Virus record (IMG/VR): IMGVR_UViG_3300037963_004589
Coordinates: 17,935-72,465 of that record
Length of the DNA stretch: 54,531 nt
Direction: 5' to 3' (one strand)
DNA from: a virus
Part shown: piece after piece, positions 1,723-21,265 of the stretch
Layout: each line of letters starts with the position of its first letter
Numbering within the stretch: the stretch's first letter is position 1
Notes under the pieces: generated by a model
Databases searched by the model: none
Told to the model about the DNA's origin: nothing
Seen by the model: only the letters and a program-made list of their open reading frames with translations
Translations under genes and position numbers: made by a program

Positions 1723-1747
1723 TTTCAAGTCTCCTAAAAAAAGGGTT

Positions 1748-3042: not shown

Positions 3043-3243
3043 TTAGTGTGTATTTTCTTTTATCGAGCGATATTTCTGTCGCAATCTTGCTTTATTTTTC
3101 TGTTCTCTTCTCTTCAAAGATGGTTTTTCATAAAACCGTCTATTTTTAATTTCCAACATTAAACCACTTTCTTTTACTTTTTTCTTAAAAATAGAAATGG
3201 CCTTTTCAATACTTTGTCCTTTACGAACATTAACTTTTATCAT
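3043..3243 (-). CDS. rpsU: Ribosomal protein bS21
   Basis: A 66-aa basic protein with the full S21 pattern: I-K-V-N-V-R-K-G-Q-S-I-E-K-A-I near the N-terminus, then F-K-K-K-V-K-E-S-G, then R-R-F-Y-E-K-P-S-L-K-R-R-E-Q-K. In bacteria bS21 sits near the anti-Shine-Dalgarno end of 16S rRNA on the 30S subunit and helps translation initiation. Phage copies are known in marine myoviruses. Its ATG overlaps the stop of the upstream gene (TAATG) and has GAGG a few nt upstream, so it is made together with late head proteins. It may replace host bS21 and bias ribosomes to phage messages, which is inference. Identification is firm. Confidence 0.93.
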   Translation of the reverse strand: MIKVNVRKGQSIEKAISIFKKKVKESGLMLEIKNRRFYEKPSLKRREQKNKARLRQKYRSIKENTH

Positions 3244-4283
3244 TAATTTCCTCGTAATTTTTGAATTTGAGCTCTAAGAGACCTTTTCTTTGCTTCTAAA
3301 CTACCCGTTTTTCTAGCAGTAGCAGGGTCATTTTCCATGCGGTCAATGGAACGCTGAGTTTGCTGAATCTGTCTTTGTAATTGTTTGATTCGGTTATCAG
3401 TACTATCATCTTCATTTAATTCAGTTAGTTTTTTGATTTGAGCTTTGAGGTTATCTCGTTTTCTTTCTAAACTAGCTAGTCTACTTCCTGCAGAACCGAT
3501 ACCACCACCCATGGCACCTGATGCACCTGGGTCGTTTTCAGCTCGTTTTATTTGCATTCTAACACGACTAAGTTGTGACCTTAGATTTTTAACTCGTCTC
3601 GCATCAACATCTGAATTAGCATCTTCATTTTTTGCTTGATAATTTTTATCTACATAATTAAAAAACTCTTTTTTCTTATCATCCTCTAATTCATCTGGTG
3701 AACTAATACCAAATTTTTTCATAGCTTTTTTAAAGAATTCTTCATAATCACCCTCTTGAATTCCTTTAGGTGCAGTTAGTTTTGCTTTTACCATATCCTC
3801 TTCTTGGTCTGCTTGTGGGTTTTCTTCACTATCATCAATCTCAAAATATCTTCCCAAAACATGGCCCATATCCTCATACAACCCACTTAATCTTTGTTGT
3901 AGGGAATTAGATTCTTGTGCAATTTTACCAAATTGTTTAGAGAGATTAGTAAGTTCTTTCATGTTACGATTTACAGTAACTTTATCAAACCAATCTTCAG
4001 TTTCACTTAATGTATATGATTTTGCTTTTGTTGCAATATCAGAAAGTGTTTCTGCAACTTGTTTTAGGTTTTCTTCTCGTTGTAAAATTTTACCAAATTT
4101 AGTAAACTGTGATATTGCCTCTTTTACATCTTTTGCAGTTATCTTATCGTTCTGTTCACCATATGTATCTTCAATTATTTTAGTTAATGAAGTGTTACTT
4201 TCATGGTTGTTTATTACTGGTGTAGTAACCACACCACCCACAACAGAAAAGCTTTCTTCAAGAAGTTTTTTTAATTTTGCCAT
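3243..4283 (-). CDS. Putative internal head protein with coiled coils
   Basis: No family recognised. The 346-aa product begins M-A-K-L-K-K-L-L-E-E-S, an N-terminal tag like those of several neighbours, with L-E-E before S fitting a prohead-protease site. Residues about 55-150 are helical and polar. The C-terminal 130 residues form two similar halves, each with a Q/R-rich heptad pattern (L-R-S-Q-L-S-R-V-R-M-Q-I-K-R-A-E-N-D-P and L-Q-R-Q-I-Q-Q-T-Q-R-S-I-D-R-M-E-N-D-P), so this is an internal duplication likely to form coiled coils. GGGAG precedes the ATG. It lies between protease and scaffold genes, which supports a head-interior role, but this is inference. Confidence 0.7.
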   Translation of the reverse strand: MAKLKKLLEESFSVVGGVVTTPVINNHESNTSLTKIIEDTYGEQNDKITAKDVKEAISQFTKFGKILQREENLKQVAETLSDIATKAKSYTLSETEDWFDKVTVNRNMKELTNLSKQFGKIAQESNSLQQRLSGLYEDMGHVLGRYFEIDDSEENPQADQEEDMVKAKLTAPKGIQEGDYEEFFKKAMKKFGISSPDELEDDKKKEFFNYVDKNYQAKNEDANSDVDARRVKNLRSQLSRVRMQIKRAENDPGASGAMGGGIGSAGSRLASLERKRDNLKAQIKKLTELNEDDSTDNRIKQLQRQIQQTQRSIDRMENDPATARKTGSLEAKKRSLRAQIQKLRGN

Positions 4284-4477
4284 TACTTGCTCCCAAACAC
4301 TTTAGAAAAGAAACCTTTTTTAGATTTCTTACCTTTTTTACCGATTTTTTTCTTCTTTCCCTTTTTCTTCTTCTTGATTTCTTCCATGTTAGCCATGTTC
4401 ATATCTGAAGCATTAACTGTAGGAACCGCACCGAAAAGAATTACAGCTGAAAGTATAAGTTTTAGTATATTTTTCAT
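4283..4477 (-). CDS. Small exported lysine-rich protein
   Basis: A 64-aa product with a clear signal peptide: M-K-N-I-L-K, a hydrophobic core of about 14 residues, then a signal-peptidase-I-like site at A-S-D around residue 24. The mature part is short and very basic (runs of K around residues 35-62). It would be exported to the periplasm, where a polycation could bind lipopolysaccharide or peptidoglycan. A lysis or envelope role is possible but unproven. The start is well supported: AAGGAG lies 7 nt before ATG 4477, with the conserved octamer just upstream. Confidence 0.75.
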   Translation of the reverse strand: MKNILKLILSAVILFGAVPTVNASDMNMANMEEIKKKKKGKKKKIGKKGKKSKKGFFSKVFGSK

Positions 4478-4493
4478 AATATATCTCCTTTGA

Positions 4494-4501
4494 TATAAAT
4501 A
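4494..4501 (-). promoter_or_regulatory. Conserved intergenic octamer (copy 3 of 5)
   Basis: TATAAATA on the plus strand is embedded in the near-palindrome TGATATAAATATCA (4491-4504) in the 33-bp gap 4478-4510. It lies only 16 nt upstream of ATG 4477 and just before its Shine-Dalgarno. If it is a promoter, the leader would be extremely short. Confidence 0.4.
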
Positions 4502-4510
4502 TCAGTATTA

Positions 4511-4792
4511 TTATTTTTCTTGAAATTTATCTTCTAAACCATCCTTACCATCTAAATAATTATATACTGATTGTAAATAATCCATAGATTTAGTAAGTTT
4601 AGATTGTACCCATGCTGGAAATTCTACTTCTCCACCCTCACCAACATTATCAATTATTTTATAAATCATTTTTGCGTATTTCATTGACCTCTCAAGTTGT
4701 GCCTTAGCCATCTTACCTTCATGGTCATCAATACCTTCATTTAATCTAAAATCTTTCCATTTTGCCCACATTTTGGGTGTCAAATCACTCAT
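4511..4792 (-). CDS. Conserved marine-myovirus small protein
   Basis: A 93-aa, mostly helical protein. The pattern G-K-M-A-K-A-Q-L-E-R-S-M-K-Y-A followed by P-A-W-V-Q-S-K-L-T-K-S-M-D-Y-L-Q-S-V-Y resembles small proteins of unknown function that I recall from T4-like marine phages. AGGAG lies directly upstream of ATG 4792. It is encoded between head-accessory genes, so a virion or assembly role is plausible. No enzymatic motif is visible. Confidence 0.75.
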   Translation of the reverse strand: MSDLTPKMWAKWKDFRLNEGIDDHEGKMAKAQLERSMKYAKMIYKIIDNVGEGGEVEFPAWVQSKLTKSMDYLQSVYNYLDGKDGLEDKFQEK

Positions 4793-4800
4793 GCTAACTC

Positions 4801-5487
4801 CTATTCACAACAAGAACCACCGCAACCACATACGGATTCTTTCTTTAATCTGCTTTTTTCTGCTCTACCACGATTTTTGGATTGAGCCTCAAATCCAACA
4901 ATTTTACCACCTTTATGTGATGCATCTTTACCATCACCATTTCCATAAGTACCTTTCTTACGATTGTACTTATTTAATTCTGCTCTGTACTTTTTCATCT
5001 TTGGAGATGATTGAAATTTTTTGTATTCTGCTTTATAATCTCTTTTCTTCTCTTCATTTAGTTTTTGTGTTTTTTGCCATTGAATAACAAACTCCACCCA
5101 ATACTTCTTGTAGATTTTCATCAAATCCATAGCTTTTTTTCTATTACCTGCATTACCAAGATACTTTATAATACCTTTTATGTCTTTATCAAATTTTGCT
5201 ATATAAGAATTAGCTAAGTTTCTTTGTTGAAGATTTGCCATATCTTCACCTTTAGCCTCATTTACTGGAATTAAATATGCAGCTTTATCACCATCTCTCA
5301 TCATTTCTAAACCATATGGATTTGACATAGAAGAGTGTCGAGTATTTTTAGTGTATAAATTATACATGGTGATATTTTTACCACGAACATTAGTTTTAAC
5401 CTTCTTTACTTTGTAAATTCGTGCACCACCTGTTTTTTGCATTGATTTTACTTTTTTTATACCATCGGCTTTAGAAAGTATCTTCAT
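4801..5487 (-). CDS. Phage protein with HNH-like module and Cys-rich tail
   Basis: A 228-aa basic protein. Residues about 150-215 match a module common in marine phages: R-D-Y-K-A-E-Y-K-K-F-Q, then G-N-G-D-G-K-D-A-S-H-K-G-G, then a basic N-R-G-R-A-E-K-S-R-L-K-K. In relatives this segment looks like a degenerate HNH or DNA-binding motif. The protein ends with E-S-V-C-G-C-G-G-S-C-C-E, four cysteines in nine residues, which suggests a metal site. The sequence V-K-K-E-S-V type just before the tail is a possible protease cut. The ATG overlaps the preceding stop by one base. Function unknown. Confidence 0.7.
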   Translation of the reverse strand: MKILSKADGIKKVKSMQKTGGARIYKVKKVKTNVRGKNITMYNLYTKNTRHSSMSNPYGLEMMRDGDKAAYLIPVNEAKGEDMANLQQRNLANSYIAKFDKDIKGIIKYLGNAGNRKKAMDLMKIYKKYWVEFVIQWQKTQKLNEEKKRDYKAEYKKFQSSPKMKKYRAELNKYNRKKGTYGNGDGKDASHKGGKIVGFEAQSKNRGRAEKSRLKKESVCGCGGSCCE

Positions 5488-5855
5488 TATAATGCCTTAT
5501 TTATATCATCATAGTTTTTAAATTTTCTTTTTAACAAACTCATAAATGGTTTTTCCATATCATGTCTTGTTAAACTCAAACCTCGTGGTAAATGACCTAT
5601 AACATCTTGTAAATCCATTATGGCTTGATAGAATTTCATATGTTGTTTACTTTTAGCCAACTTAGCCAATTCATATCTTGCCATTGTATGGTTGTTATAT
5701 TTAGTAAGGTCTTTTATTCGAGCAATATCACTATCGGACATTACCTCTTCTTGTAGTTGGTGTTTTTTCATAACACTATTAAGTGTGGGTAATGGTTCAC
5801 CAAATTCTCTTTCAAGGTATTTACTTTCTTTTAATAAATCTTTAAGTTTAGTCAT
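5487..5855 (-). CDS. Putative capsid-targeted small protein
   Basis: No family recognised. The 122-aa product begins M-T-K-L-K-D-L-L-K-E-S, nearly the same leader as the protein at 19693-19908, and L-K-E before S fits the T4 prohead-protease consensus. The rest is helical and basic. AGGA lies about 9 nt before ATG 5855. T4 internal proteins use a comparable N-terminal capsid-targeting sequence ending in a gp21 site, so packaging into the head is proposed by analogy. Confidence 0.65.
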   Translation of the reverse strand: MTKLKDLLKESKYLEREFGEPLPTLNSVMKKHQLQEEVMSDSDIARIKDLTKYNNHTMARYELAKLAKSKQHMKFYQAIMDLQDVIGHLPRGLSLTRHDMEKPFMSLLKRKFKNYDDINKAL

Positions 5856-5864
5856 TTTATTTTC

Positions 5865-7925
5865 CTATAAACTGGTGTACATACCAGTATTTTTAGTGAA
5901 TAGTTTTTGGAGTTGGTCTGCGTAAACACCCTTTTCTTTAGATTTAACCTTTACATTACCCGCTCTTACTTGTAAGAACTCCATATCATATAAATCAGCA
6001 CCTGTTAATTTGATTCTAAGATGAGATACACCTTTTGAATTTCTACCAATTTTCATATGTAGTGTATTTTTTGCTTTATCAACTGCTAGATTTTTAGCAC
6101 CTGTCATGGCAATAAATCTATTACCACCTAATTGTTGTAATAATTGTTTTGGGTCTAATCTTGCCTCGTTTAATGATTCGTTAAACTTACGAAGTGCATC
6201 TTTTACTGTATTAGTTTTTGATAATCCTTTTGATATCTTTTCAATCTTCTTTACAGCACCAGTCATGTTACCACTCATTTTTTTAGCAATTTGTACTGCG
6301 TTTTTAATTTGAGTTTTATGGTATAATTTTTTAATTTCGTTTATATTACCTTTTTTCATATCCACAATACTTGCTGCCATATCTCCAAGTGCTAAACTAA
6401 TACTCCCATTTCTATTGTATAAATATCTTTTTGCTCTTTTATTTTTAGTATCTGCAGGTATCATAATGATTCTTTCTATTTTACCTTTCATTAATTTAGT
6501 TTTACCCTTTGTAACTAAAAATGGATGAAATTTAGAACCTTTAGCAATACTTGAATCATATTTAATACTTACGATATCACCCTTTTTAAGTGAATTATAG
6601 ATTTTAAATTTTTGTGAATCGCTGATGTTTTCAGTCACACTTTTATTTACGGATTCATTCGATTTCCGTTTTTTCTCTCTTTCTTTTTTCTTCTTAAGTC
6701 TGAGTGCATCTATTTTATATTGGACTTGTTTGGCTTTTGAAAGTCTCATATCATCATTTTTATTAGCCATTATGTCGTCTCTTCTTTGCATAAATTTTTT
6801 TATTTGACTATCAATATCTTTATTTACGGATTCTTTAATCTTTTGTAGTATCTTTGGGTCTTCATCACCAAACATATCAATCAGAGTATCTTGTATCTCA
6901 CCTCGTGAGTATCTCATTTGTTTGAATTGTCTTTTTGAAGTATCTATGGCGTGGAAGATGGGGTCGTATCCTTTTTGTTTTAATAATTTCTTAACAGCAG
7001 GTCTCATCTTTTGTAGTTCATTTACGGATTCACCCTTTGGTTTATCTTTCATACCTTTAGCAATTTTATCAATAAATGCTGTTACTTCTTTTGGTTGTCT
7101 CTTTTCATAATTAGTTATTTTACCATTAGGTGCGATGTGAGCTATACTTTTGTAATCACCAGCTTTTTCTACATTACGATTCCATAATGTGATTCCATTA
7201 CCTTTAGAACCCATACCGATATCATAACGACCTATCTTTACTTCTTTTAATTGAGTTAATACAAATCCCTCATCCAAATCAGTTTTCTTAAAATCTTTTA
7301 GGTTCTTTACCACCTTACTCATTTCTGAATATTTACCGAGTATAAAATCTTTAGATGAAACTCCCAAATCTATATCTGTATTTTTGCGTACATAAAATGG
7401 TAGAACTGCTGAACCTCTTTTTACTTTACCTTGACCTTTCATATCTACTTTGTTATTTGATTTAACTGTATAAAATCCACCCCAAATACCACTATGAAAA
7501 TCTTTTCTCATCGGGTCAAACTTGATTACCTTGATTCCAGCTTTTTTTAATGCATTATCTATGAATACCTTTATTAATTTCTCCTGTCCTTTTTTACTTG
7601 GAGCCTCTTTTAATCTCCTATCCTCTTCACCTGTACCACCTGGTGATTTTAATTTATAATTTGGGTCTACAGCAGATGTAGTATAACCACAACCTTCCAT
7701 TTCTGTATTAGTCAATTCTCGTATAGTTTGTTCTAACCACTCTTGATTTACTTTCACTGGTTTTCCCTTATGTTTAGTGGAAGCATATTTCTTCACACTT
7801 TTTTTACTCATAGATTTTGCTGCTTTTTTCACAGCAGGTGATGCATCACTTGGGTTCATTTCTCCCTTTTTAAGTGCATGAACCATACCCATAAATTTTT
7901 GTTGTGCCTTTGATTTAGAAGGCAT
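5865..7925 (-). CDS. Modular 686-aa virion-type protein
   Basis: Several phage modules are strung together. Residues 1-58 (P-S-K-S-K-A-Q-Q-K-F-M-G-M-V-H-A, S-M-S-K-K-S-V-K-K-Y-A-S-T) resemble the DUF3008 family. A middle part of unknown fold covers about 110-295, helical segments 303-420, and a basic beta-rich segment 440-520. Residues about 590-686 (Q-L-G-G-N-R-F-I-A-M-T-G-A-K to T-G-M-Y-T-S-L) match a C-terminal module I recall from many phages. Linkers of the type E-S-V-N-E/K occur at 299, 365, 424 and 583. The sites K-I-K-E365 and F-N-E583 before S, and L-N-E587 before A, resemble prohead-protease cuts. The protein may be a processed internal head polyprotein. Only a weak RBS is seen before ATG 7925. 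Confidence 0.75.
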   Translation of the reverse strand: MPSKSKAQQKFMGMVHALKKGEMNPSDASPAVKKAAKSMSKKSVKKYASTKHKGKPVKVNQEWLEQTIRELTNTEMEGCGYTTSAVDPNYKLKSPGGTGEEDRRLKEAPSKKGQEKLIKVFIDNALKKAGIKVIKFDPMRKDFHSGIWGGFYTVKSNNKVDMKGQGKVKRGSAVLPFYVRKNTDIDLGVSSKDFILGKYSEMSKVVKNLKDFKKTDLDEGFVLTQLKEVKIGRYDIGMGSKGNGITLWNRNVEKAGDYKSIAHIAPNGKITNYEKRQPKEVTAFIDKIAKGMKDKPKGESVNELQKMRPAVKKLLKQKGYDPIFHAIDTSKRQFKQMRYSRGEIQDTLIDMFGDEDPKILQKIKESVNKDIDSQIKKFMQRRDDIMANKNDDMRLSKAKQVQYKIDALRLKKKKEREKKRKSNESVNKSVTENISDSQKFKIYNSLKKGDIVSIKYDSSIAKGSKFHPFLVTKGKTKLMKGKIERIIMIPADTKNKRAKRYLYNRNGSISLALGDMAASIVDMKKGNINEIKKLYHKTQIKNAVQIAKKMSGNMTGAVKKIEKISKGLSKTNTVKDALRKFNESLNEARLDPKQLLQQLGGNRFIAMTGAKNLAVDKAKNTLHMKIGRNSKGVSHLRIKLTGADLYDMEFLQVRAGNVKVKSKEKGVYADQLQKLFTKNTGMYTSL

Positions 7926-7945
7926 CTTTACTAAGATATTTTTTA

Positions 7946-8275
7946 TTAAAAATAATCATTAGAAGTTTCAGAGTCTGCAAACCCATTACCAAAACCTTCT
8001 GGGTCTACATCATGATTTTCTGGTATTGGTATAGAAGCTAAACCATTTGCACCCTCTAATCGTGTAGAAGTAAAGTTTGATGGTGTTGGAAAGTTACTAT
8101 TTGCTCCATCAACTTTACCAGCCAAACCATCTACAGCTGCTGAAACTTCATCTACTGATGTAGTTTGACCAGAGTAAGATTGGCCTTTTGTTGGTGCAAC
8201 ATACTCAGCTTCACCATTTATTGCATATCTTGAACCACCCTGCATAAATTTAAGTTTTAGTCCTTCATCTGCCAT
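7946..8275 (-). CDS. Small hypothetical head-region protein
   Basis: Not recognised. A 109-aa, low-complexity, Gly/Ser/Asn-rich acidic protein with no membrane segment or catalytic motif. AGAGGAGAA lies before ATG 8275, two bases after the protease gene. Placement directly after gp21 suggests a prohead or capsid-accessory function, for example decoration, but nothing in the sequence proves it. Confidence 0.65.
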   Translation of the reverse strand: MADEGLKLKFMQGGSRYAINGEAEYVAPTKGQSYSGQTTSVDEVSAAVDGLAGKVDGANSNFPTPSNFTSTRLEGANGLASIPIPENHDVDPEGFGNGFADSETSNDYF

Positions 8276-8277
8276 TT

Positions 8278-8895
8278 TTATTCTCCTCTAATTATCTTGT
8301 TGATTATATCTTCGGATTTACAATACTTACCACAAGTTCTTCCTTGTGGTTGTGTTTTATCCACACTCTCTTGAATTGGGTGTAAAAATGCACCATGTGT
8401 AGATGGATTACTTACAAAATCAAAAGCTATGAGTTCAAAATCATCACCAACTTTCATAACTTGTCCATCTGCTTCGTTTACTGCTTCAACACTTCCCATA
8501 CCACGAGAAGATATCCCCAATTTTATCCCATTCTTAAATAATTCTCTTAAAATATTACCACTTGGTGTGGTTAAAATTTCTACTGTACCTAATAAATTAT
8601 CACCTTCAAAATGCATTTCAGTAACATTATGAGATACATTTTGAAGATTTACAACCGAACTATCTGGATGGTCTAACTCTCCCATTGCTCGATTTTGTTT
8701 TATAAACCCCTCGTCATAATTCTTTGCTTCTCTTTGTAAAATCTCCATTGGATAAACTCTTCCATTTTGATTTTTTGCATCTGCTCGTTGTAATACACCC
8801 TTAACAACTAACTTACCATTGTTTTCTTTCATGGATTCGTTAATTTGTTCAGGTGCAATTTCAAATGGTATATAATCTACAATTAAACTTTTCAT
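8278..8895 (-). CDS. 21: Prohead maturation protease, T4 gp21 family
   Basis: Serine protease inside the prohead that clips scaffold, capsid and internal proteins after [L/I]-x-E. The 205-aa product shows the family landmarks G-E-L-D-H-P (His76) and G-I-S-S-R-G-M-G-S-V (Ser129/130), the probable His-Ser catalytic pair, plus the V-L-Q-R-A-D-A-K-N-Q-N-G-R-V-Y-P stretch. It has candidate self-processing sites near both ends: I-N-E20 before S and I-Q-E before S-V-D-K. AAGGAT precedes ATG 8895. In T4 it directly precedes gp22; here eight genes lie between. Confidence 0.93.
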   Translation of the reverse strand: MKSLIVDYIPFEIAPEQINESMKENNGKLVVKGVLQRADAKNQNGRVYPMEILQREAKNYDEGFIKQNRAMGELDHPDSSVVNLQNVSHNVTEMHFEGDNLLGTVEILTTPSGNILRELFKNGIKLGISSRGMGSVEAVNEADGQVMKVGDDFELIAFDFVSNPSTHGAFLHPIQESVDKTQPQGRTCGKYCKSEDIINKIIRGE

Positions 8896-9146
8896 TATTT
8901 TATCCTTTTTACTATACCAACAATATTCTTCATGAATTTAGTTACGGTATTCTTGTAATCTTTCATTACTTCATCACCAAGTTTTTTATCTTTTTCTAAA
9001 GCCATTACAAACTGATACATTGATAATCGAAAACTTGCCTCTTCTGTCATTAGTTTTTTTAATCGAGATTTAAGTAATGGTTTATCCACTTCATTCAAAG
9101 TATTTACTTCTAAAATTTTTGAATAATATTTGTCTAAAATTTTCAT
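8895..9146 (-). CDS. Small head-region protein
   Basis: Not recognised. An 83-aa helical, basic protein. The open frame extends upstream to 9281, but that would overlap the preceding gene by 134 nt. ATG 9146, one base after the preceding stop codon, is the natural start, although its RBS is weak and coupling is likely. It contains L-N-E and M-T-E-E before A, possible protease sites. Its position between portal and protease corresponds to T4 genes 67/68, which encode small core proteins, but similarity is not visible. Confidence 0.6.
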   Translation of the reverse strand: MKILDKYYSKILEVNTLNEVDKPLLKSRLKKLMTEEASFRLSMYQFVMALEKDKKLGDEVMKDYKNTVTKFMKNIVGIVKRIK

Positions 9147-9147
9147 A

Positions 9148-9942
9148 TTAAACTTTTTTAACGAACCTATGTAAACCAAAACCTGAACCTGGAACTTTAG
9201 TAAATCCAAGTCTTTTAAATTCATCTTCATATGCTTGTTGAAGTTCACCGTATGATAATTTATCAAATGCATCTTGACCAATGTTTTTTATCACATTGTT
9301 TCTTACCTCACGAGAATCATCAGCTGTAGCAGGTTCGGTTTTATCCTTTGGTTCTGCTTTTGGTTCTGCTTTTGGTTCTTGTTTTGGTTCTTGTTTTGGT
9401 TTAATTTTACTTGATGATGATTTAACATATCTACTTGTCATAACTTTTAAATCATCCTTAATATTTTGTATAGTGTCTAAAAGATATTCTTCTTCCTCTT
9501 CATCACCACTTCCGTATGCTACTTGTAAATCATCTTCTGTATATTTCCAAGTTTTTAGTAAATCATTTATTTCTTCTTCATCTGCAGCATCTAAATTTAA
9601 ATCTTTTTCGTTGGCATCTAACCAATCTTCATAATCATGTGGTGAATCTAAATAACTTTCATAATCTTCTATAGGAATGGATTCTTCATCATCACCAGGT
9701 TGAGTAATAGTTGCACCATCAACATCTCTTTCAAAATCTGTTATCTTTTGAGATTGAGTCTCATCATCACTATCATCACCATCAGCTTCTGGTTCCTCGT
9801 AATCACCAGATTTTAAAGCTTTCTCGTAGTTATCTTGATTTGTAAAATGTACTACTTTACCACCACCCTTTGGTTTTAGTTTAGCATCAAAATCCTTTTC
9901 ATTCATTAAAGCATATAGTTCTTCTAAATACTTATCATTCAT
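9148..9942 (-). CDS. Acidic head-core-like protein
   Basis: A 264-aa protein with a strongly acidic centre (about residues 48-165, many D-D-E and E-E-E-E runs), then a short P-K-Q-E-P / P-K-A-E-P repeat linker and a small C-terminal domain (about 205-264) ending G-F-G-L-H-R-F-V-K-K-V. Acidic composition and location between portal and protease fit a prohead-core role comparable with T4 gp67/gp68, but no direct family match is seen. TAGGAAAA precedes ATG 9942. Confidence 0.65.
   Translation of the reverse strand: MNDKYLEELYALMNEKDFDAKLKPKGGGKVVHFTNQDNYEKALKSGDYEEPEADGDDSDDETQSQKITDFERDVDGATITQPGDDEESIPIEDYESYLDSPHDYEDWLDANEKDLNLDAADEEEINDLLKTWKYTEDDLQVAYGSGDEEEEEYLLDTIQNIKDDLKVMTSRYVKSSSSKIKPKQEPKQEPKAEPKAEPKDKTEPATADDSREVRNNVIKNIGQDAFDKLSYGELQQAYEDEFKRLGFTKVPGSGFGLHRFVKKV
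9350..9397. repeat. Four tandem 12-bp repeats
   Basis: Two copies of GGTTCTGCTTTT followed by two of GGTTCTTGTTTT (plus strand) encode the K-Q-E-P, K-Q-E-P, K-A-E-P, K-A-E-P linker of the acidic protein at 9148-9942. It is a coding minisatellite that probably separates two domains. Confidence 0.9.
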
Positions 9943-10541
9943 TGTAATTTTCCTACCTTATTAGCCAACTTGACTAATCGTTCTGATATTTTACCTAATG
10001 CCTTATGAGTGGTTTTCCAATAAGAACGAGAATCTACATTTAGTTCATTTTTTAATCTGACATTCATATCGATAAGTTTACTTAACTCAGTTAGTGAATT
10101 TCTAACTTCTCTCATTGAACGACCAATTTTTTGTTTTGGTGTTAAACTTTCATCATTTCTATACTGATGATACTTTCCCTCTTGTACAATTATTTTATGA
10201 CCACCTTTTACTTTAACAACACCATAATCCTTTTTAAAATTTTGTGTACTAGCCCATTTCATGGCTTCCCTACTATTTTTATGAACTGGCCCTTGATATT
10301 TAAAAATTGGACTTTTACCTTCTACTTTAGTGTAACCACTTTTATTTGCTATATCATCTCTTCTATCTTTTTTCTTACCAGTTTTTTTATCCTTACCTGC
10401 AAATGCATAAGGTGTATCATAATAAATTCCTTTACCTACACCACCACCTGCACTTACTGTCGTAGATGCTTCTTCAATTTCTTTTCGAATAAGAGATTTT
10501 AAAAATTCTAAAAATTTAGTTTTACTTACTTTTGTGGACAT
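9939..10541 (-). CDS. Hypothetical head-region protein
   Basis: Not recognised. A 200-aa basic protein with an N-terminal helix rich in leucine (K-F-L-E-F-L-K-S-L-I-R-K-E-I-E-E-A-S), where I-E-E before A fits a prohead-protease site. A Gly/Tyr/Lys-rich middle follows, then a helical C-terminus. The frame opens at TTG 10547, but ATG 10541 has AGGAA 8 nt upstream and is chosen. It overlaps its upstream neighbour by 20 nt and the downstream gene by 4 nt, so it is co-transcribed and coupled. Confidence 0.65.
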   Translation of the reverse strand: MSTKVSKTKFLEFLKSLIRKEIEEASTTVSAGGGVGKGIYYDTPYAFAGKDKKTGKKKDRRDDIANKSGYTKVEGKSPIFKYQGPVHKNSREAMKWASTQNFKKDYGVVKVKGGHKIIVQEGKYHQYRNDESLTPKQKIGRSMREVRNSLTELSKLIDMNVRLKNELNVDSRSYWKTTHKALGKISERLVKLANKVGKLQ

Positions 10542-11382
10542 TACCAAGTTCCTTTACTAACTCATAATATCTCATAAGAGAAACAACATGAGAATCTTTT
10601 ACAAACTTTCCACCAATTGCAGTATCAGTATGTTTGATTGCCTCTGTTAATTTAATTTTTGTGAGCTTATCATCTACTTTGTTTAAATGTTTTTTAAGTT
10701 GTTTTTTAACTTTTTTAACTTCAGAATTAATAAACTCTCTTAATGAATTTGTGTTTGATATGTTATTGATATATTCTCTAAGTAGAGTTTTTTGAGATTC
10801 ATTTAGATTACTATATTTTTTATTAAATTTATCAACTAATAATTGATACGCCAATAATCTAACATCTTCTGATTCAGTAGTTAATTTTACTTCTATATCT
10901 TTTTTAAGTTGTTTTTTAGTAACATTATTACAGATATGTTCTATCAAAGTAATTTGAGAATCAGTTTCTTCTATCGGTGCTATATTATTATTTTCAAATA
11001 TATTGTAAATAGATGCCAATACTTTGTAATTATTTATTCGCACATTGAAAAAATTATTTACATTATAATTTTCTTTAATCACTTTGATTAAATTAAATTT
11101 TTCACTTTTAAGTCTACGATTAGAAAGTTTACTACGATTTTTAAGTACTGCTTCAACTAACATTTTAGCTTGATTAGAATTTTTGTATTTTTTTTCTAAT
11201 AATACTTTGTATAACTGATACTCCTTTCCAAGTTCTGTATTCTCATTGAAGAAACTTTTCAAAACATTAATTGCTTCTTGCTTTTTAGAATCGTTAATCA
11301 CATCAACGGTTATTTGTCGAGTTAGTAACTCAAACAATAGGCCCGTATTTTTAATTTTATTGTGCTTTTTAACTTTTGACAT
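10522..11382 (-). CDS. Helical protein next to portal gene
   Basis: A 286-aa, Lys/Asn-rich, almost wholly helical protein with N-terminal N-T-G-L-L-F-E-L-L-T-R-Q-I-T. This opening resembles a conserved protein of unknown role that I recall from marine T4-like phages. ATG 11382, not the TTG at 11385, is chosen because GGAG lies 6 nt upstream of the ATG. The conserved octamer lies about 34 nt upstream, so a new transcript may begin here. A role in prohead core or portal-connected assembly is inferred from position only. Confidence 0.65.
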   Translation of the reverse strand: MSKVKKHNKIKNTGLLFELLTRQITVDVINDSKKQEAINVLKSFFNENTELGKEYQLYKVLLEKKYKNSNQAKMLVEAVLKNRSKLSNRRLKSEKFNLIKVIKENYNVNNFFNVRINNYKVLASIYNIFENNNIAPIEETDSQITLIEHICNNVTKKQLKKDIEVKLTTESEDVRLLAYQLLVDKFNKKYSNLNESQKTLLREYINNISNTNSLREFINSEVKKVKKQLKKHLNKVDDKLTKIKLTEAIKHTDTAIGGKFVKDSHVVSLMRYYELVKELGNVHKSK

Positions 11383-11415
11383 CAAACACTCCGTATTTTA
11401 GTAAATTCATTCATA

Positions 11416-11423: not shown

Positions 11424-11443
11424 TAAAAACTTCAAATAATTGA

Positions 11444-13240: not shown

Positions 13241-13251
13241 TTTTTACCTCA

Positions 13252-14820
13252 CTATAAGAGCCATTCTAAAGACTCTTTTTTCTTATTTATTTCCATTTGC
13301 CAAGAATCATTACGATTCTCTTCTGGTGTATACAGACCATCAATGTCTTGCATTCTACTTAAAGTTTTTTTTGTCAATTCAATCCCCTCAGTTCGTAATC
13401 TTAATGCTGTATCACGAACCCACAAACCTATGGCAAATGACATAACTAAATCATCATTATACCCACTCATTGCTTCTGCTCTATTATTGTTATAAATAAA
13501 GGTAAATAATTCATCAATCAATCTACCACTTCTAACAACAACTGCATCTTCTCTAAAAAATTCTTCTAACTTTGCAATAATCAAAGGTCGAGTTTTCATA
13601 GTGGTTGTAAATCCAGCCACCATATTTTTTTCTTGACTTCTATACTTATTAGTCATTTGATGTGCAATATCAATATACTGTAAATCTTTACTCGTATAAA
13701 ATAAATTAGGATAATCCCTATCTATTACTTGTTGTATTGTTGCCCAACCAATATTATTGTTTTCTATAATTAGTAAGGCATCGTTATATTCCGTTGAAAT
13801 ACTGACTAACATATTACCAAAATCTTTAGTACTCATCCTACCCTTGTATTCTGCTACTTGTTCAACACTCTCTACATCTATCACATGAAATGCACTAAAA
13901 TCTTGTGAATCTCCTCTACCCACATCTGCACATACAATATAATCACGAGTATAATTAGGTGGTTCCCATATCCAAATGTTACCATCTATTCCTCTTTTTT
14001 CTAATGGGTCTTTACCATATTTTTTTCTACAATTTTCTAAAACAACACCATCAATTACTGTCGTACCAGAGGTAATAAAATCACAATCACATTCTTGTGC
14101 CGCACCTTGTATGCCTAATAGTTCATCTTGTTCATCTCTCCAAGTTTGACTTCTATCAGGATGTACAGTCCAATGAAGTTTGATATCATTGAACATTCCT
14201 CTACCCTCTTCTGCTTGTACCCAAGTTTGATGGAACCAATTACCTACACCATTAGGTGTGGACAGTGCAATACAACTACCACCTGTTGTAAGTGTTTGTT
14301 GTGATGCAGTCCATATATCATCTATCTTATCGATAAATGCAGCTTCATCCAAAACTAACAATGATAATGCTTCAGAACGAGCAGCTTCTGGTCCACTTGC
14401 ACTTGCTTTTATTTGTGAACCATTTACATATCGTAATGATAATTTATTATCCTCAGTACACTTTTGTTTTAACCAAGAGGGTAAGTTGGCATGCATTACT
14501 CGTACCTTAGTAACAAGATTTTTAGCTGTATCTTGTTTTGTTGCAATTACCAATATGTTTTTATCTTGATGAAATGTCATTAACCACAAAGAATAACCTG
14601 CAGTTAGAGTACTAATACCTAACTGACGAGCTTTTAATATAATGTTAAATCGTTCTTTGTTAAATTCTTGGATTGTTTTTTCTTGAAAATCATACAAACT
14701 AAATGGAATCTTACCCTTAATCGGATGTTGAATCATACAATACTTTTTTAAAAAGTAGACAGGGTCTTTAGCACTTTTTATATACTCTTGTTTAATTACT
14801 TCTTTTATTTGAGTAGCCAT
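13252..14820 (-). CDS. 17: Terminase large subunit, T4 gp17 family
   Basis: ATP-driven DNA packaging motor and genome-cutting nuclease. The 522-aa product shows a Walker A-like K-A-R-Q-L-G-I-S-T at 63-71, Walker B L-S-L-L-V-L-D-E-A-A-F with D158/E159, a coupling motif around T-A-S-Q-Q-T (171-176), and the RNase-H-fold nuclease region with D299 in C-A-D-V-G-R-G-D, an I-I-E-N-N stretch and a late N-D-D-L-V-M-S acidic motif. It is shorter than T4 gp17 (610 aa). Its ATG overlaps the upstream stop (TAATG). No obvious small terminase is adjacent. Confidence 0.95.
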   Translation of the reverse strand: MATQIKEVIKQEYIKSAKDPVYFLKKYCMIQHPIKGKIPFSLYDFQEKTIQEFNKERFNIILKARQLGISTLTAGYSLWLMTFHQDKNILVIATKQDTAKNLVTKVRVMHANLPSWLKQKCTEDNKLSLRYVNGSQIKASASGPEAARSEALSLLVLDEAAFIDKIDDIWTASQQTLTTGGSCIALSTPNGVGNWFHQTWVQAEEGRGMFNDIKLHWTVHPDRSQTWRDEQDELLGIQGAAQECDCDFITSGTTVIDGVVLENCRKKYGKDPLEKRGIDGNIWIWEPPNYTRDYIVCADVGRGDSQDFSAFHVIDVESVEQVAEYKGRMSTKDFGNMLVSISTEYNDALLIIENNNIGWATIQQVIDRDYPNLFYTSKDLQYIDIAHQMTNKYRSQEKNMVAGFTTTMKTRPLIIAKLEEFFREDAVVVRSGRLIDELFTFIYNNNRAEAMSGYNDDLVMSFAIGLWVRDTALRLRTEGIELTKKTLSRMQDIDGLYTPEENRNDSWQMEINKKKESLEWLL

Positions 14821-15203: not shown

Positions 15204-15214
15204 ACTAAACCTCA

Positions 15215-16284: not shown

Positions 16285-16292
16285 TATAACTC

Positions 16293-19200
16293 CTATCCAA
16301 ATTTTAAACTACCGAGTATCTGATTTATAGGAGCAAAAGCACCTGTGAATTTATACACATTACCTTTATACTTAAACACAATACCCTCACTTGGTACTAT
16401 TGCACTTAGTCCACCTATTGCCTCGAGTTTTTCTATTTGTATTTTTAATTTTTTTAATTTTTCTATTTTATCTGGTGTTTTTAATTGATTTAAAGCACTT
16501 ATAACCTCTTTTCTAATTTTTTGTACTGCTTTATTTGGTGATACTGCAATAAAACCACTAATGTTTTTAAGTATCTCAGCACCAACTTCAAAAAATAATA
16601 TTTCAAATGGTTTTATATTATCTTTGAACATTCTTTGATGGTCTTGTTTATCTGTAGAAACTACCCAATCAACAAATTTTGGATTATTTTCAAAATCTTT
16701 TTTAATATCAGGTATTTTATAACTCTTATCAAAAAATGCCCATCTGTTTACCAGTTTTACAAGTTGGTCTGATTTCAAACTCACATTATGTTGTTTTGCA
16801 GCATTGTAAACATATTCTCTCCAAAATGCCTCATGATATTCACCCAATCTATTACTATCTTTCAATGCAAATTCAGCCTGTAGTTTTTTTAATTTATTTA
16901 AAAAGTAATTTTTCTTTTTACCAAAATCTTGAGTTTTTGGTACTGTTAGAAAGTTAGGTTTTGATATTGTGTAGTTTTTTTGAACATTAGCATTTACTTG
17001 TTTAATCATTCCTTGTAACATTCTAGCACTGTCTTTGGGTTGACCAATTGGTTTACCAGTATCATTATATTCTAACGAACCATGAAATACTATTTCTGCA
17101 ACATCGTAATCAATTACATTTGCAGTTGCTGGATACATAACCTCTAAATTCATCCACTTAGTACCGTTACCAAATATTTTTTCTTTTTGTTTTTCTGACA
17201 ACTTACCTATTGATTTTTCTAAATCTTTCATTGCACCTACAAAAGCTTTTTCTATATTTCCTCTACCACTAAAAATAGCTTTTATACCATTTGTATCAGG
17301 TGCAGTTTCACCTCTATTTTTTAAATGTCCTTTATTACGAGCAGCTTTTAACTTCCCATCAATCCAACTTACCATTAAATTTTGCCCATCAAGTTTCTCT
17401 GTAACACCATCTTCTCTATCTAACTTTCCTCCTAACCCATTTATAATTATCTGTTTCAAATCTGAAAATGTAAGATTATTGTCATCAAATGGATGACTCA
17501 TGTGTCCATAGGCTCCTCCCATTAATAATAACTCCTTTGTATCTTTTAAATAACTTTCTTGAATCTTTTTAACTTTATCAACACCTTGTGTAGATGTTTT
17601 CATATCAAATGTAGGTGAATCATTTACTTTAACAGTTTTCTTACCAAAAAACTTTACAATCTCCCACCCCATTTTATCAATTATAGATTTCATATGTTTT
17701 CTATATTTTGGAAATGGGTTTGCTACACTATCAGTATTACTGCGGTTTTGATTAACTGTCCTACCAAATGTTACTGTATCAACCCTATCTGCCTCATAAG
17801 TATAATCAAAACCTGGGTCTCTTGCAGTATCATCTAAAATGTCACCCACAACTTCGTAACCTATAATGTCTGCATGTCTTTTTGAAGTTCGTTTGTAATC
17901 ACCAAATGAATTGAAAAAATCATATAATCCCTCATCAGATAAATCTCCAGCATTAAAATGATTTCCAAATGCACTTACCTCTTTTACTAATTTTTTTACT
18001 GATGGTTGATTAAAAAATTCAAATAACTTTTTAAATTTATTTACCATCATATTATACACACCTTTATCATAATATCCAAATAGTTTTTTAAAAACTTTTG
18101 GTCTATCCTCATCTTTTATTTTAGGTGAACCTAATATCTTTCTCATCGTTGTACCAGATACTTCCATTCCTGCAACACTAATACTTGTATGTGGTGCGGT
18201 CATAAAATATCCGTGTTCTTCATATCCTTTGAGATTGTTTTTATTTTTATTATAATCTTGAAAATATGATAAACCACCACTTTTCTTTTTACCACCACCT
18301 AATCTTCCTGCATCCTTTTCACCAAAAATGTATATCACTGCAGTGGTATTCGGGTCATATTTTTTTAAAACATTTTGTGCTTTTAATGGAACTTTTTCCT
18401 TTATAATACGATTTGCTGGAACACCCATTTTTACCATATGTCGAACTTTCTCTTTATAGTTCATTGGATGTCGTGGTGGTTGTTTTATATCTGATGTAGT
18501 GATATATGCATCATCTACTTTTGATTTTAACCACTTGTAAGTTTTTAAATGATGTGGGCCAAATGGTTGATATCTACCACCATAGATACCAACAACTTTT
18601 TTAATTTTTTGTTCGGTAATGGACATATTATCCCCATTTTCTATACCTAAATATACATCATTTTCACTATATAAGTCAAGTGTTTTTTTTATATTTTCAT
18701 CCATTTTTAATTTTTTTCGTAAAGAACTAATTTTCTTTATAAGTTCTTTTTGTTTAGGAGAACCTGGTATCATCTTCATAGCTTGATTGTACATTTTGAA
18801 CAAGTCTTTATTTTCTCCTATAGCATCATATCCTATAAGTGCTACTGCTAAATCTCTATCAGAATTTCCTCTGAATTGTTTTGCCACTTTTCTATAATTC
18901 TTGTTAATCATAGCAGAAGCTTTTTTTGCAGATTTTGTATATTGTGTAAGAAATTTATGTATAGCACTAATTTGTGCTTTATTTTCATTTACCTTTTTAT
19001 AACCACTACCATAAGGAACTGAAGTATTACCTTTCTTCTTCATTTTGTTTATTCCTTTTCTACTTGGTGATGGAACTACTCCAACCATCTCAGTTTTTTT
19101 CTTTTTCTTTTTAGATATCTTAGGGTCATAATAACGATGTTCTCCATCTGGATTATTTTGTGGTACATTACCTACATTTTTTAAATAATGTGGGTAATTT

Positions 19201-19691
19201 AACATTTCTTTCTTAGTTTTCTTTTTCATTTGATTAATAAATTTTCTATAAACACCTGCTTGTGCCTTCTTACCCATTTCTTTTGCTCGTTGTTCCATTG
19301 CAACTGCAGCCTGTATCTTATGTGCATGAGTCTTACCACTATTTTTGATTTTACTAACTGATGCTTGTGCATCCTTGACAGTGGCAAACTTCAGTCCTTT
19401 GATTGTTCCTTTTGGATTTTCATCTGTGTATAAATCCGAATGATTGGGTGAGTTTCTGTGTTGGCCCTTTTTACGAGGTACTCTAGCAGCCTCTTCAACT
19501 TTTTTCTCGATTCTAAATTTTAATGCAGACCTTCCATTTATCAATAAATCACCCTTCTCATTATAATCTATAGATTTTACTACAACCTTTTTATTTTTAA
19601 ATCTACCCATCAAAACAGTATCACCTATTTCTACAGGTAGTTTAATATCTTCAGTTAGAGGTTTAATTAACCATTTTATAAGTTTATCCAT
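16293..19691 (-). CDS. NadM-like nucleotidyltransferase / RNA-ligase-like fusion
   Basis: A 1132-aa multidomain protein. Residues 1-60 hold an N-terminal L-T-E14 tag and a small beta domain. About 85-162 is a phage module with S-D-L-Y-T-D-E-N-P-K-G-T-I and T-H-A-H-K-I-Q-A-A. About 364-550 is a nucleotidyltransferase fold: G-G-R-Y-Q-P-F-G-P-H-H (HxGH motif altered, last His kept at 381) and V-S-G-T-T-M-R at 511-517, as in NMN adenylyltransferases. About 720-1132 is a covalent nucleotidyltransferase: K766-L-D-G (motif I), N-L-E-V-M-Y-P at 848, S-E-G-I-V-F-K-Y at 1101, and K-F-T at 1114. Candidate gp21 sites I-T-E360, L-F-E558 and I-Q-E712 lie exactly between domains. Possible roles are NAD salvage plus RNA repair, perhaps delivered from the head. 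Domains are well supported; activity and packaging are inferred. Confidence 0.8.
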   Translation of the reverse strand: MDKLIKWLIKPLTEDIKLPVEIGDTVLMGRFKNKKVVVKSIDYNEKGDLLINGRSALKFRIEKKVEEAARVPRKKGQHRNSPNHSDLYTDENPKGTIKGLKFATVKDAQASVSKIKNSGKTHAHKIQAAVAMEQRAKEMGKKAQAGVYRKFINQMKKKTKKEMLNYPHYLKNVGNVPQNNPDGEHRYYDPKISKKKKKKTEMVGVVPSPSRKGINKMKKKGNTSVPYGSGYKKVNENKAQISAIHKFLTQYTKSAKKASAMINKNYRKVAKQFRGNSDRDLAVALIGYDAIGENKDLFKMYNQAMKMIPGSPKQKELIKKISSLRKKLKMDENIKKTLDLYSENDVYLGIENGDNMSITEQKIKKVVGIYGGRYQPFGPHHLKTYKWLKSKVDDAYITTSDIKQPPRHPMNYKEKVRHMVKMGVPANRIIKEKVPLKAQNVLKKYDPNTTAVIYIFGEKDAGRLGGGKKKSGGLSYFQDYNKNKNNLKGYEEHGYFMTAPHTSISVAGMEVSGTTMRKILGSPKIKDEDRPKVFKKLFGYYDKGVYNMMVNKFKKLFEFFNQPSVKKLVKEVSAFGNHFNAGDLSDEGLYDFFNSFGDYKRTSKRHADIIGYEVVGDILDDTARDPGFDYTYEADRVDTVTFGRTVNQNRSNTDSVANPFPKYRKHMKSIIDKMGWEIVKFFGKKTVKVNDSPTFDMKTSTQGVDKVKKIQESYLKDTKELLLMGGAYGHMSHPFDDNNLTFSDLKQIIINGLGGKLDREDGVTEKLDGQNLMVSWIDGKLKAARNKGHLKNRGETAPDTNGIKAIFSGRGNIEKAFVGAMKDLEKSIGKLSEKQKEKIFGNGTKWMNLEVMYPATANVIDYDVAEIVFHGSLEYNDTGKPIGQPKDSARMLQGMIKQVNANVQKNYTISKPNFLTVPKTQDFGKKKNYFLNKLKKLQAEFALKDSNRLGEYHEAFWREYVYNAAKQHNVSLKSDQLVKLVNRWAFFDKSYKIPDIKKDFENNPKFVDWVVSTDKQDHQRMFKDNIKPFEILFFEVGAEILKNISGFIAVSPNKAVQKIRKEVISALNQLKTPDKIEKLKKLKIQIEKLEAIGGLSAIVPSEGIVFKYKGNVYKFTGAFAPINQILGSLKFG

Positions 19692-19692
19692 C

Positions 19693-19908
19693 TTACTTTA
19701 TTTTTACACCAGCTAAAACAACTTTTCCTCTTTTGGTCTTACCCTCTATAGCTTTTTGCAAATCCTTACCACGAAATGATAGTGTTAATTCTATTTTTTT
19801 ACCAGTAATAATTAAATCTTCGTTATTTATACCCATTACTTTGAATGATAAATTATTTTCAATCTCTGTGGTTTTTGTTTCACTTAATAAATCTTTTAGT
19901 TTAATCAT
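19693..19908 (-). CDS. Small protein with capsid-targeting-like leader
   Basis: Not recognised. A 71-aa product beginning M-I-K-L-K-D-L-L-S-E-T. L-S-E resembles the prohead-protease site, and the leader is very close to that of the protein at 5487-5855. The remaining about 60 residues look like a small beta-rich domain (F-K-V-M-G-I-N-N-E-D-L-I-I-T-G-K-K-I). It overlaps the upstream gene by ATGA, so translation is coupled. An internal head protein is the proposed role. Confidence 0.6.
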   Translation of the reverse strand: MIKLKDLLSETKTTEIENNLSFKVMGINNEDLIITGKKIELTLSFRGKDLQKAIEGKTKRGKVVLAGVKIK

Positions 19909-20165
19909 TTTAATATCCGTATTTTTGATTTATAATTTCTCAAAACTTTTTTTGCACCTATCCCAATTCCTGCATCCATTTTTCTTTGAGTGATTTCATA
20001 CTGGTCTTTACCTAAATCTTTAATAAAGTAATCTGTTTTTTTTACTCTACCACTATCCATTTTTTTATCTAACATTTGTTTTACTATCTTTTTATCTAAA
20101 GTAGTTAGGTGACCAGATAATACTTTAATCTTAATCTCGTTAATTAATTCTAATAATTTTACCAT
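19905..20165 (-). CDS. Small basic protein
   Basis: Not recognised. An 86-aa basic protein with leader M-V-K-L-L-E-L-I-N-E-I, where L-I-N-E is another possible prohead-protease site. It overlaps the upstream gene by 7 nt with only a weak RBS, and the downstream gene by ATGA. It belongs to the same string of small late genes. No other motif is visible. Confidence 0.55.
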   Translation of the reverse strand: MVKLLELINEIKIKVLSGHLTTLDKKIVKQMLDKKMDSGRVKKTDYFIKDLGKDQYEITQRKMDAGIGIGAKKVLRNYKSKIRILK

Positions 20166-21265
20166 TTTCTACAAGACCAGTAACGAGCTTTATGTCTTGG
20201 GCCTGGATTATCACAATTGTGTCTAGCTCTAAATGATTTACGAGCCTTAGGATTTGATTTCCTAATTCTCATTGTACCACCTTTAGCATCACCACCTTGT
20301 CCAAAGTTTACCTTAACAACATTACCTTTTGGATTCTTCACATAAACCTTGAATTTTTTTACATCCCCTTGCATAATCTTACCAAGTTTAACTTTACGAC
20401 CTTGATATTCTGCTTCATTTAAATCTTCAGTTTTAAAACCAAAAGTATACCCACCATATTCACCTGTATTGGATTCGTAGTAGAGTTCATTTTCACCTAA
20501 CCAAACATTAGTTTGAACACCCTCTTTCTTTACGCAATTAGGATACACTTTACCGAACATTTTCTTAGTTCCCTTTTTCTCATATCCTTTCCAACACTTC
20601 TCATCAAGACTCCAAACCTTAGTTTCTTTTACATCTTCTTTTTTTCCACTAAAACTATACTTGGACTTTCCGTATAACTTCTTTTTTGTTGCCCTTTCTC
20701 TTTCTAAAGCTGCACTATAAATAGCTTGAGCTTTCTTAACTAATGCTGGTGGATATGTCTTTGTACCTTGATTCATTACAGAAGCTACGGTAACCGTCTT
20801 ACCAGTCTTTGGATTTTTTAATTTTTGTTTTTCAGCCTGCATTGTAGGTGGGAGACCAAACTCTTTTACAACTGACTCCTTTTTACTTTTGTTACCCCAA
20901 TTCTTAGCACCTACTTTTCTACATTTTACTAATGCACCACTTGCATAAGCAGATGGCCATACATCGTAACGAGCTTTTACCTTGCGATAACAAGCATCTT
21001 TTTTACCTGCTGCTTCATCAAATTGAGCTTCTGTGATTGGTTTACCTACCAACTCTTCTAACTTTGAACTCATTACATTCTCCTTCTTAAAAAATTTTTT
21101 AATTGCTGATAATGCCCTATGGTGTAATTTATGGTTCTTATTTTTTAATGCAGTCTTATATGTTACATTTTTTGCAATCTGTCGTTTTAACATATCATCA
21201 TATGCTTTTTTATTTACAATTTGCATATTTGGTACTAATTCATGTATATCCATATCTTCTCTCAT
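20159..21265 (-). CDS. Modular cysteine-containing virion-type protein
   Basis: A 368-aa basic protein of modules that I recall from marine phages: K-K-D-A-C-Y-R-K-V-K-A-R-Y-D-V-W-P-S-A-Y-type at about 88-125; K-C-W-K-G-Y-E-K-K-G-T-K-K-M-F-G-K plus P-N-C-V-K-K at about 228-252; and a C-terminal R-H-N-C-D-N-P-G-P-R-H-K-A-R-Y-W-S-C-R-K-W. Possible gp21 sites are P-I-T-E before A near residue 80 and L-N-E before A near residue 288. ATG 21265 overlaps the upstream stop (TAATG) without a good RBS, while a strong internal site at 21073 would give a 304-aa form. Function unknown. Confidence 0.75.
   Translation of the reverse strand: MREDMDIHELVPNMQIVNKKAYDDMLKRQIAKNVTYKTALKNKNHKLHHRALSAIKKFFKKENVMSSKLEELVGKPITEAQFDEAAGKKDACYRKVKARYDVWPSAYASGALVKCRKVGAKNWGNKSKKESVVKEFGLPPTMQAEKQKLKNPKTGKTVTVASVMNQGTKTYPPALVKKAQAIYSAALERERATKKKLYGKSKYSFSGKKEDVKETKVWSLDEKCWKGYEKKGTKKMFGKVYPNCVKKEGVQTNVWLGENELYYESNTGEYGGYTFGFKTEDLNEAEYQGRKVKLGKIMQGDVKKFKVYVKNPKGNVVKVNFGQGGDAKGGTMRIRKSNPKARKSFRARHNCDNPGPRHKARYWSCRKW
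21080..21085 (-). promoter_or_regulatory. Strong internal ribosome binding site
   Basis: AAGGAG on the minus strand lies 6 nt before an in-frame ATG at 21073 inside the gene at 20159-21265. It is stronger than anything before the annotated start at 21265. The short product would begin M-S-S-K-L-E-E-L. Either this is the true start and the upstream 64 codons are a separate short gene frame, or two nested products are made. Confidence 0.6.

Follow-up and report, generated by a model that had tools for sequence, protein, structure and literature searches.

Why should proteins with unrelated bodies begin with nearly the same short peptide, each time ending that peptide on a glutamate? The question is raised by a stretch of virus DNA of 54,531 nucleotides (hereafter ‘the window’; positions 17,935 to 72,465 of IMG/VR virus record IMGVR_UViG_3300037963_004589, a fragment of 94,452 bases from a marine T4-like phage), whose first 22 kb are filled by a T4-type head gene cluster with its genes on the minus strand. 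The closest named relatives of this phage, judged by its capsid protein (52-58% identity), are a huge uncultured phage, Microcystis phage Mel-JY01 and the Flavobacterium phages immuto. The peptides in question, here termed ‘leaders’ or ‘tags’, are very probably T4-type capsid-targeting sequences that end in cut sites for a gp21-type prohead protease, extended in these phages to a modular, exchangeable and partly polyprotein cargo.

An earlier note on this DNA had pointed to similar leaders on unrelated proteins at 3243, 5487, 19693 and 19905, and all four are found at those positions. They are given here together with a longer leader and a further possible one (coordinates are those of the window, an arrow marks the candidate cut, and ORF stands for open reading frame).

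4254..4283, minus strand: leader MAKLKKLLEE↓S of ORF 3243-4283, with the cut mapped at residue 10 in 14 orthologues
3243..4283, minus strand: the corresponding tagged protein of 346 amino acids (aa), between gp22 and gp21
5826..5855, minus strand: leader MTKLKDLLKE↓S of ORF 5487-5855, with 27 leader-bearing homologues and the cut mapped at residue 10
19879..19908, minus strand: leader MIKLKDLLSE↓T of ORF 19693-19908
20136..20165, minus strand: leader MVKLLELINE↓I of ORF 19905-20165, with which MIKLKDILTE↓IKIKVLSGHL of locus L123 aligns at the same cut
10470..10541, minus strand: longer leader MSTKVSKTKFLEFLKSLIRKEIEE↓A of ORF 9939-10547, for which 14 orthologues place the cut at the same residue
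4736..4792, minus strand: possible leader MSDLTPKMWAKWKDFRLNE↓G of ORF 4511-4792

The first four leaders, on four unrelated proteins, share the register M-x-x-Φ-x-x-Φ-Φ-x-E10, with hydrophobic residues (Φ) at positions 4, 7 and 8 and glutamate at position 10. This register (M..Φ..ΦΦ.E) is present in 4 of the 28 ORFs of the head cluster, where 0.07 would be expected, and none of 5000 shuffles of the first 25 residues of each ORF reached four; the glycan-type locus at 22432-53957 of the window (~40 genes), which served as an internal control, has it in 1 of 41 ORFs. The head-cluster proteins are likewise enriched in the motif [LI]xE[AS] (25 occurrences against 9.0 ± 3.0 expected, a number that 0 of 300 shuffles reached), and the excess persists (18 against 5.3) when gp23, gp22, gp20 and gp17 are set aside. 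A comparison with the glycan-locus genes had been proposed in the earlier note as a check, and it separates the two regions: the glycan-locus proteins display no [LI]xE[AS] enrichment (11 against 8.6 expected, with 26% of shuffles reaching 11). The control motifs [LI]xD[AS], [AS]xE[LI], [LI]xQ[AS] and [LI]xK[AS] displayed no excess in head-cluster proteins, and a fifth, [LI]xxE[AS], was marginal (14 against 8.8 expected). The tail cluster and the glycan locus of the source contig carry essentially no tagged genes. Another tagged gene (MIKLKDLLLE↓TPSTRAM) lies outside the window, at ~92705-93184 of the source contig (L487 806-1285).

The shared register is the one found in bacteriophage T4. As read here, the leaders of T4 internal proteins IPII and IPIII (MKTYQEFIAE↓A), of the vertex protein gp24 (MAKINELLRE↓S) and of Alt (MELITELFDE↓D) all fit it with E10, and the window leader at 3243 is nearly identical to that of gp24. 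Genetic studies of IPIII assigned targeting to residues 4 and 7 and processing to residues 8 and 10, and aspartate at position 10 blocked processing while leaving targeting intact (PMC9026906); a wider role for targeting of this type had also been suggested earlier (PMC9026906). An analogy with the T4 internal-protein tag had been drawn in the earlier note, and it proves to go beyond mere resemblance, in that T4 and the window have in common the 10-residue length, the hydrophobic positions 4, 7 and 8, Glu10 and a gp21-type protease. That protease is encoded together with its candidate substrates, among them the scaffold and capsid proteins of the head itself.

8278-8895, minus strand: gp21-type prohead serine protease (Peptidase_S77; PF03420, E 5.7e-27), with sites INE20↓S and IQE176↓S of its own, aligned with its Mel-JY01 and immuto counterparts
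1748-2902, minus strand: gp22-type scaffold, with a C-terminal site ISE↓G followed by RFKKLANII
67-1728, minus strand: gp23 capsid protein (PF07068, E 6.8e-77)
1531..1533, minus strand: gp23 maturation site LIDE↓A, with E64 counted from the ATG

The expectation that gp21 and gp22 would bear the same motif is borne out (INE↓S and IQE↓S in the former; LAE↓S, IKE↓S and ISE↓G in the latter), as is the placing of a capsid site, LIDE64↓A, near the T4 cut; that site is kept as LISE↓A in Mel-JY01 and as IVSE↓A in immuto, and its numbering holds from an ATG two codons into an ORF that, as listed, starts at TTG. The C-terminal pattern of gp22, a ΦxE site and then RFKKLA[GN]I[IL], is common to ~34 gp22-type proteins, and the resemblance to it of a third type of leader, seen only once, on one immuto cargo protein, hints that tags may mimic the scaffold. 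Some leader genes do lie far from the head cluster (at 60-96 kb in Mel-JY01 and at ~92.7 kb of the source contig), as might be expected if the leader directed proteins to a membrane, to another compartment or to degradation, with the ΦxE enrichment reflecting that destination instead of a prohead protease. Such a destination is very unlikely, since the cut-site residue is Glu and not Asp, the match to T4 holds residue by residue, a gp21-type protease is present, the gp23, gp22 and gp21 sites are of the same form, and a tagged protein of cyanophage S-SM1, discussed below, has been detected in virions.

Approximately 160 loci of relatives around head or ligase genes, including 80 around gp21 homologues, were surveyed for the same feature. 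In the vicinity of gp21, 50 proteins belonging to 23 body families have a leader core that starts at residue 4, a number far above that for most other offsets, and 59 have a leader at residues 3-5 (shuffled mean 6.4, maximum 15), while a second peak at residue 8 accompanies longer leaders. Among 66 leaders gathered from gp21 or ligase-like loci with no selection for glutamate, E10 is present in 54 and D10 in none, and most of the others have Glu at position 9 or 11; the T4-type demand for Glu over Asp at the cut is therefore seen here at the level of conservation only. The residue after E10 is Ser or Asn in 28 of the 54. The leader always stands at the start codon and is frequently written in A/T-rich codons such as AAA and TTA, which is what a nucleotide-level or translation-start element (a late-gene expression signal, for example) with incidental peptide similarity would look like. 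That explanation is most improbable: synonymous codons vary at the leader Lys, Leu and Glu, which indicates that selection acts on the peptide, and, as described below, a second and different leader peptide serves the same bodies and the ΦxE motif also marks internal junctions distant from any start.

A scan that began from the leader, using a degenerate MIKLK-leader pattern over viral contigs and blind to head genes, returned at least 118 loci. Among the matches listed, nearly all fall at gene starts, more than 100 bodies are largely unrelated, and 100 proteins match 33 Pfam families with few members each, the bodies including zeta-toxin-like kinases, exonuclease, HD, HAD, Nudix, poly(A) polymerase and ATP-grasp. 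A T4-type head gene is present on 44 of the 118 loci listed, even though the stored pieces average 9 kb. A slightly narrower pattern found only 74 stretches in 257 billion bases of cellular genomes, ~25 of them plausible gene starts and several evidently on phage contigs. Bodies resembling ADP-ribosyltransferases, picked out by eye in Mel-JY01 and at leader-first loci, had no Pfam match and for that reason were not counted. With such diversity, the notion that the leader-bearing genes are one recently duplicated family, whose shared start is plain homology, is scarcely credible. A second motif (FGEPLPTL) does follow the leader in some of the neighbours, but 100 leader-first proteins align only over MIKLKDLLxE, several residues of which are fixed by the search pattern itself, with a mean column identity of 5% across the alignment; at least 23 body families occur in one data set, and clearly different Pfam families are seen behind the same leader. 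The fuller form of that second motif, [WY]xRxFGEPLPTL, stands directly after the leader of ORF 5487-5855 and is common to many relatives with otherwise differing bodies.

The MIKLK leader (type A) is one of two. A second type (B), MKITKSQLRQIIKEE..., also terminates in Φ-x-E, usually at residue 21-22, and at least three bodies are found behind leader A in one phage and behind leader B in another. In the clearest of these swaps the two sequences begin to align immediately past the Glu of each (MKITKTQLRRIIKEEIQLLTE↓RSLSGEMEELKLYIDND in one protein, MIKLKDLLVE↓KNLSDEMKELKLYIDND in the other); a swap at exactly this point is what interchangeable, removable tags predict.

The motif also recurs inside longer chains. 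Modules of the window polyproteins are found elsewhere as separate genes behind a leader, and when the ends of such leaders were mapped onto the polyproteins, six of eight internal junctions (chosen by reading the table of mapped leader ends) proved to be no more than 3 residues away from a Φ-x-E site, against 11% of positions by chance (binomial ~4e-5).

5865..7925, minus strand: 686-aa multi-module protein with DUF3008 (PF11450) at its N terminus; sites LKE107↓A, LDE219, IKE365↓S, FNE583↓S and LNE587↓A
6165..6167, minus strand: LNE587↓A, which precedes the C-terminal module of that protein
5053..5055, minus strand: candidate cut LNE145 in ORF 4801-5487, at the start of an RDYKxEYKKFQSS module
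9090..9092, minus strand: LNE64↓V in ORF 8895-9281, the end of a leader if a later start codon is used
20159..21265, minus strand: 368-aa multi-module protein; sites ITE79↓A, FDE84↓A, LDE222↓K and LNE284↓A
20600..20602, minus strand: LDE222↓K, matched exactly at locus L160, where the same module (CWKGYEKKGT) is joined to the leader MIKLKELISE↓K
21535..21537, minus strand: VNE25↓N in ORF 21265-21609, to which MILLRDIMAE↓D of locus L132 maps exactly

In the 686-aa protein, residues 593-686 align to residues 5-98 of a separate family (PHROG 9437, 98 aa), which places position 1 of that family at residue 589, beside LNE587↓A. The RDYKxEYKKFQSS module is a separate protein at locus L168, behind an N-terminal segment of its own that maps 2 residues from LNE145, and PHROG 6437 covers residues 145-213 of the ORF 4801-5487 product; a homologue from locus L078 (MIKLKDFLVE↓S) similarly maps 2 residues from LNE64↓V. 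The modules of the 368-aa protein are re-shuffled in the cyanophage proteins S-SM2_109 and S-SM1_115, and the body of ORF 4511-4792 resembles a module within the S-SM2_109 polyprotein. Window modules of this kind are small and basic; those of the 1132-aa polyprotein form a separate case.

16293..19691, minus strand: 1132-aa polyprotein, comprising a small N-terminal module, a RKKGQHRNSPNHSDLYTDENPKG module, a HIGH-type nucleotidyltransferase (~360-560) and a ligase-like domain (~715-1131)
19650..19652, minus strand: LTE14↓D, at the same point as the L125 leader MIKLKDLLLE↓R
19491..19493, minus strand: VEE67↓A, before a module that is fused in L199 to the leader MIKLKHLLEE↓P
18612..18614, minus strand: ITE360↓Q, where the nucleotidyltransferase begins
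17556..17558, minus strand: IQE712↓S, before the ligase-like domain, which stands alone in L110 behind MIRLGKLLNE↓V

The earlier note had described sites of this form before Ser or Ala between the modules of the proteins at 5865, 16293 and 20159, and this holds for the first, for the last and for IQE↓S of 16293, but not for the ITE of 16293, which precedes Gln. Relatives place differing modules ahead of the nucleotidyltransferase, most of them keeping a Φ-x-E joint, and Φ-x-E stands immediately before GGAYGHM in 63 of 84 ligase-like homologues, a good many of which are related to one another, against 8 of 252 control positions (~3%). As to the domains themselves, the nucleotidyltransferase matches CTP_transf_like at E 0.0018, short of Pfam’s cut-off, with a GRFQPF motif that is conserved in relatives. 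The ligase-like domain has the full set of nucleotidyltransferase motifs of the ATP-dependent RNA/DNA ligase superfamily (KLDG, RNK, NLE, EGIVFK and KFTG, conserved in 28 sequences); a PDB sequence search with it gave nothing credible, and RNA ligases recur weakly among the structural matches of its model (predicted local distance difference test score, pLDDT, 75; no Foldseek E below 0.26 and no Z above 4.9). A role for the protein in the repair of RNA or of nicotinamide adenine dinucleotide would be a guess.

The only direct link between a leader and a virion protein is provided by cyanophage S-SM1, whose cytidylyltransferase (T4-GC190) was detected by mass spectrometry in purified virions (PMC3037559). 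It starts with MKKFSAFLNE↓A, in the same register as the window leaders, and its relatives from P-SSM4 (MKKFSAFLKE↓A) and AG-345-E02 (MKSFSQFLTE↓T) have retained this leader; the accessible part of PMC3037559 does not point it out. T4-GC190 resembles the window 1132-aa protein in its leader register and in being a HIGH-type nucleotidyltransferase, but is a separate 387-aa protein without a fused ligase-like domain. The cytidylyltransferase of S-PM2, as annotated, has no leader and, according to the same paper, was undetected in S-PM2 virions; since further proteins of the head and tail escaped detection there as well (PMC3037559), little weight is placed on the absence. In S-SM1 the gene for the virion cytidylyltransferase adjoins one for DUF6267 (T4-GC71, with a KWDG motif; 147295-149419, or L288 295-2419), an arrangement that echoes the nucleotidyltransferase-ligase fusion of the window. 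Profile comparison detected no kinship between the window ligase-like domain and this cyanophage family.

The mechanism that these observations would fit can be set out briefly. During prohead assembly, an N-terminal peptide of 10 (or ~21) residues would bind the gp22-type core and cause the tagged protein to be enclosed; the protease at 8278-8895 would then cut after the Glu of Φ-x-E and free that protein inside the head, and the same motif between modules would let a single gene supply several independent polypeptides. With the tag as the sole requirement, any body could be recruited, and unrelated enzymes and small basic modules would come and go. Once the DNA has been packaged, whatever the head contains would pass into the host along with the genome and act there early. 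Head targeting of the tagged proteins is predicted, by analogy with T4, with high confidence, and cutting after the leader Glu is, on the same analogy, likely; delivery into the host is probable, and we infer a host-side function for the cargo.

Several points weigh against this account. Packaging, cleavage and injection in the window phage are predictions from sequence. One leader is followed by Ile and not by Ser, Ala or Asn (MVKLLELINE↓I), and the window ligase-like domain lacks the Glu of most of its homologues, having LLLM at that place and IQE↓S a few residues upstream. In whole genomes the strict leader is barely above shuffles (6 against 1.9 in immuto, 6 against 1.8 in Mel-JY01 and 2 against 1.6 in S-SM1). 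Finally, part of the tagged set may belong to the core or the capsid and not to the injected cargo: the product of ORF 3243-4283, whose leader is so close to that of the T4 vertex protein, may be a head-core protein, and ORFs 3243 and 9939, both located within the gp22-gp20 cluster, are conserved in relatives. (The Mel-JY01 homologue of 3243, matched by eye, has a different, longer leader ending VIAE↓N.) It is nonetheless rather unlikely that tagged proteins in general serve chiefly in assembly, as head-core, scaffold or minor capsid components, because most leader-first bodies are sporadic and phage-specific, and, unlike structural parts, several of them belong to enzyme families (Nudix, HAD, zeta-like kinase, exonuclease, poly(A) polymerase).

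The results thus favour tagged cargo, and suggest that the heads of the window phage and of many uncultured relatives hold a large array of exchangeable proteins. T4 supplies the precedent, with a handful of tagged proteins that gp21 cuts at L or I-x-E; here the tag stands on dozens of unrelated bodies across relatives and, beyond what is known of T4, comes in two interchangeable types and is accompanied by cut motifs between polyprotein modules. The ejection proteins of phiKZ and SPN3US are comparable in that many head proteins are cut after Glu by a prohead protease and are expected to enter the host, but the phiKZ motif is S or A-x-E and SPN3US propeptides are mostly longer than 100 residues (PMC9026906, PMC5694885), whereas the leaders described here are short tags of 10-25 residues with hydrophobic-x-E, position -3 being Leu, Ile, Val or Phe. 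The polyvalent proteins of phages and conjugative elements (PMC5512222) are likewise multidomain, domain-shuffled and predicted to be packaged and injected, and the window 1132-, 686- and 368-aa proteins each combine several shuffled domains in one chain; polyvalent proteins, however, have built-in peptidases or travel whole, while the proteins described here have joints with sites of the prohead-protease type and modules that also occur solo behind a leader. Pfam, which may miss distant relatives, recognized no peptidase domain within these window proteins. No earlier description of the tag expansion and its scale, the second leader, leader swapping or polyprotein-joint sites was found in the open-access literature searched.

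Beyond a few model phages, the proteins that enter a host with phage DNA are mostly unknown. A somewhat better than even case can be made that marine T4-like phages possess a general protein-delivery system, in which two interchangeable N-terminal tags and protease-cut polyproteins load into the head dozens of enzymes, unrelated and rapidly exchanged, for release into the host at infection, and that reading the tags lists the injected proteins. If so, sequence alone would list those of abundant uncultured ocean phages, and the Nudix, HAD, zeta-like kinase, exonuclease and poly(A)-polymerase bodies would be plausible early tools of counter-defence and host takeover. The T4 targeting rule would then hold well outside the enterobacterial T4 phages, and would include a second tag and joints within polyproteins, neither of them known in T4; direct tests are possible in the cultured relatives S-SM1, immuto and Mel-JY01.

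The head cluster of the window is completed by the portal and terminase genes.

11444-13240, minus strand: gp20 portal
13252-14820, minus strand: gp17 terminase

Within the same cluster, an ORF at 3043-3243 resembles ribosomal protein S21 (PF01165, E 2.2e-15), and such an ORF is near gp21 in Mel-JY01 too. A cysteine cluster, CxCGGxCC, occurs directly after a leader or at the C terminus in the window ORF 4801-5487 and at loci L011, L012, L133 and L281.

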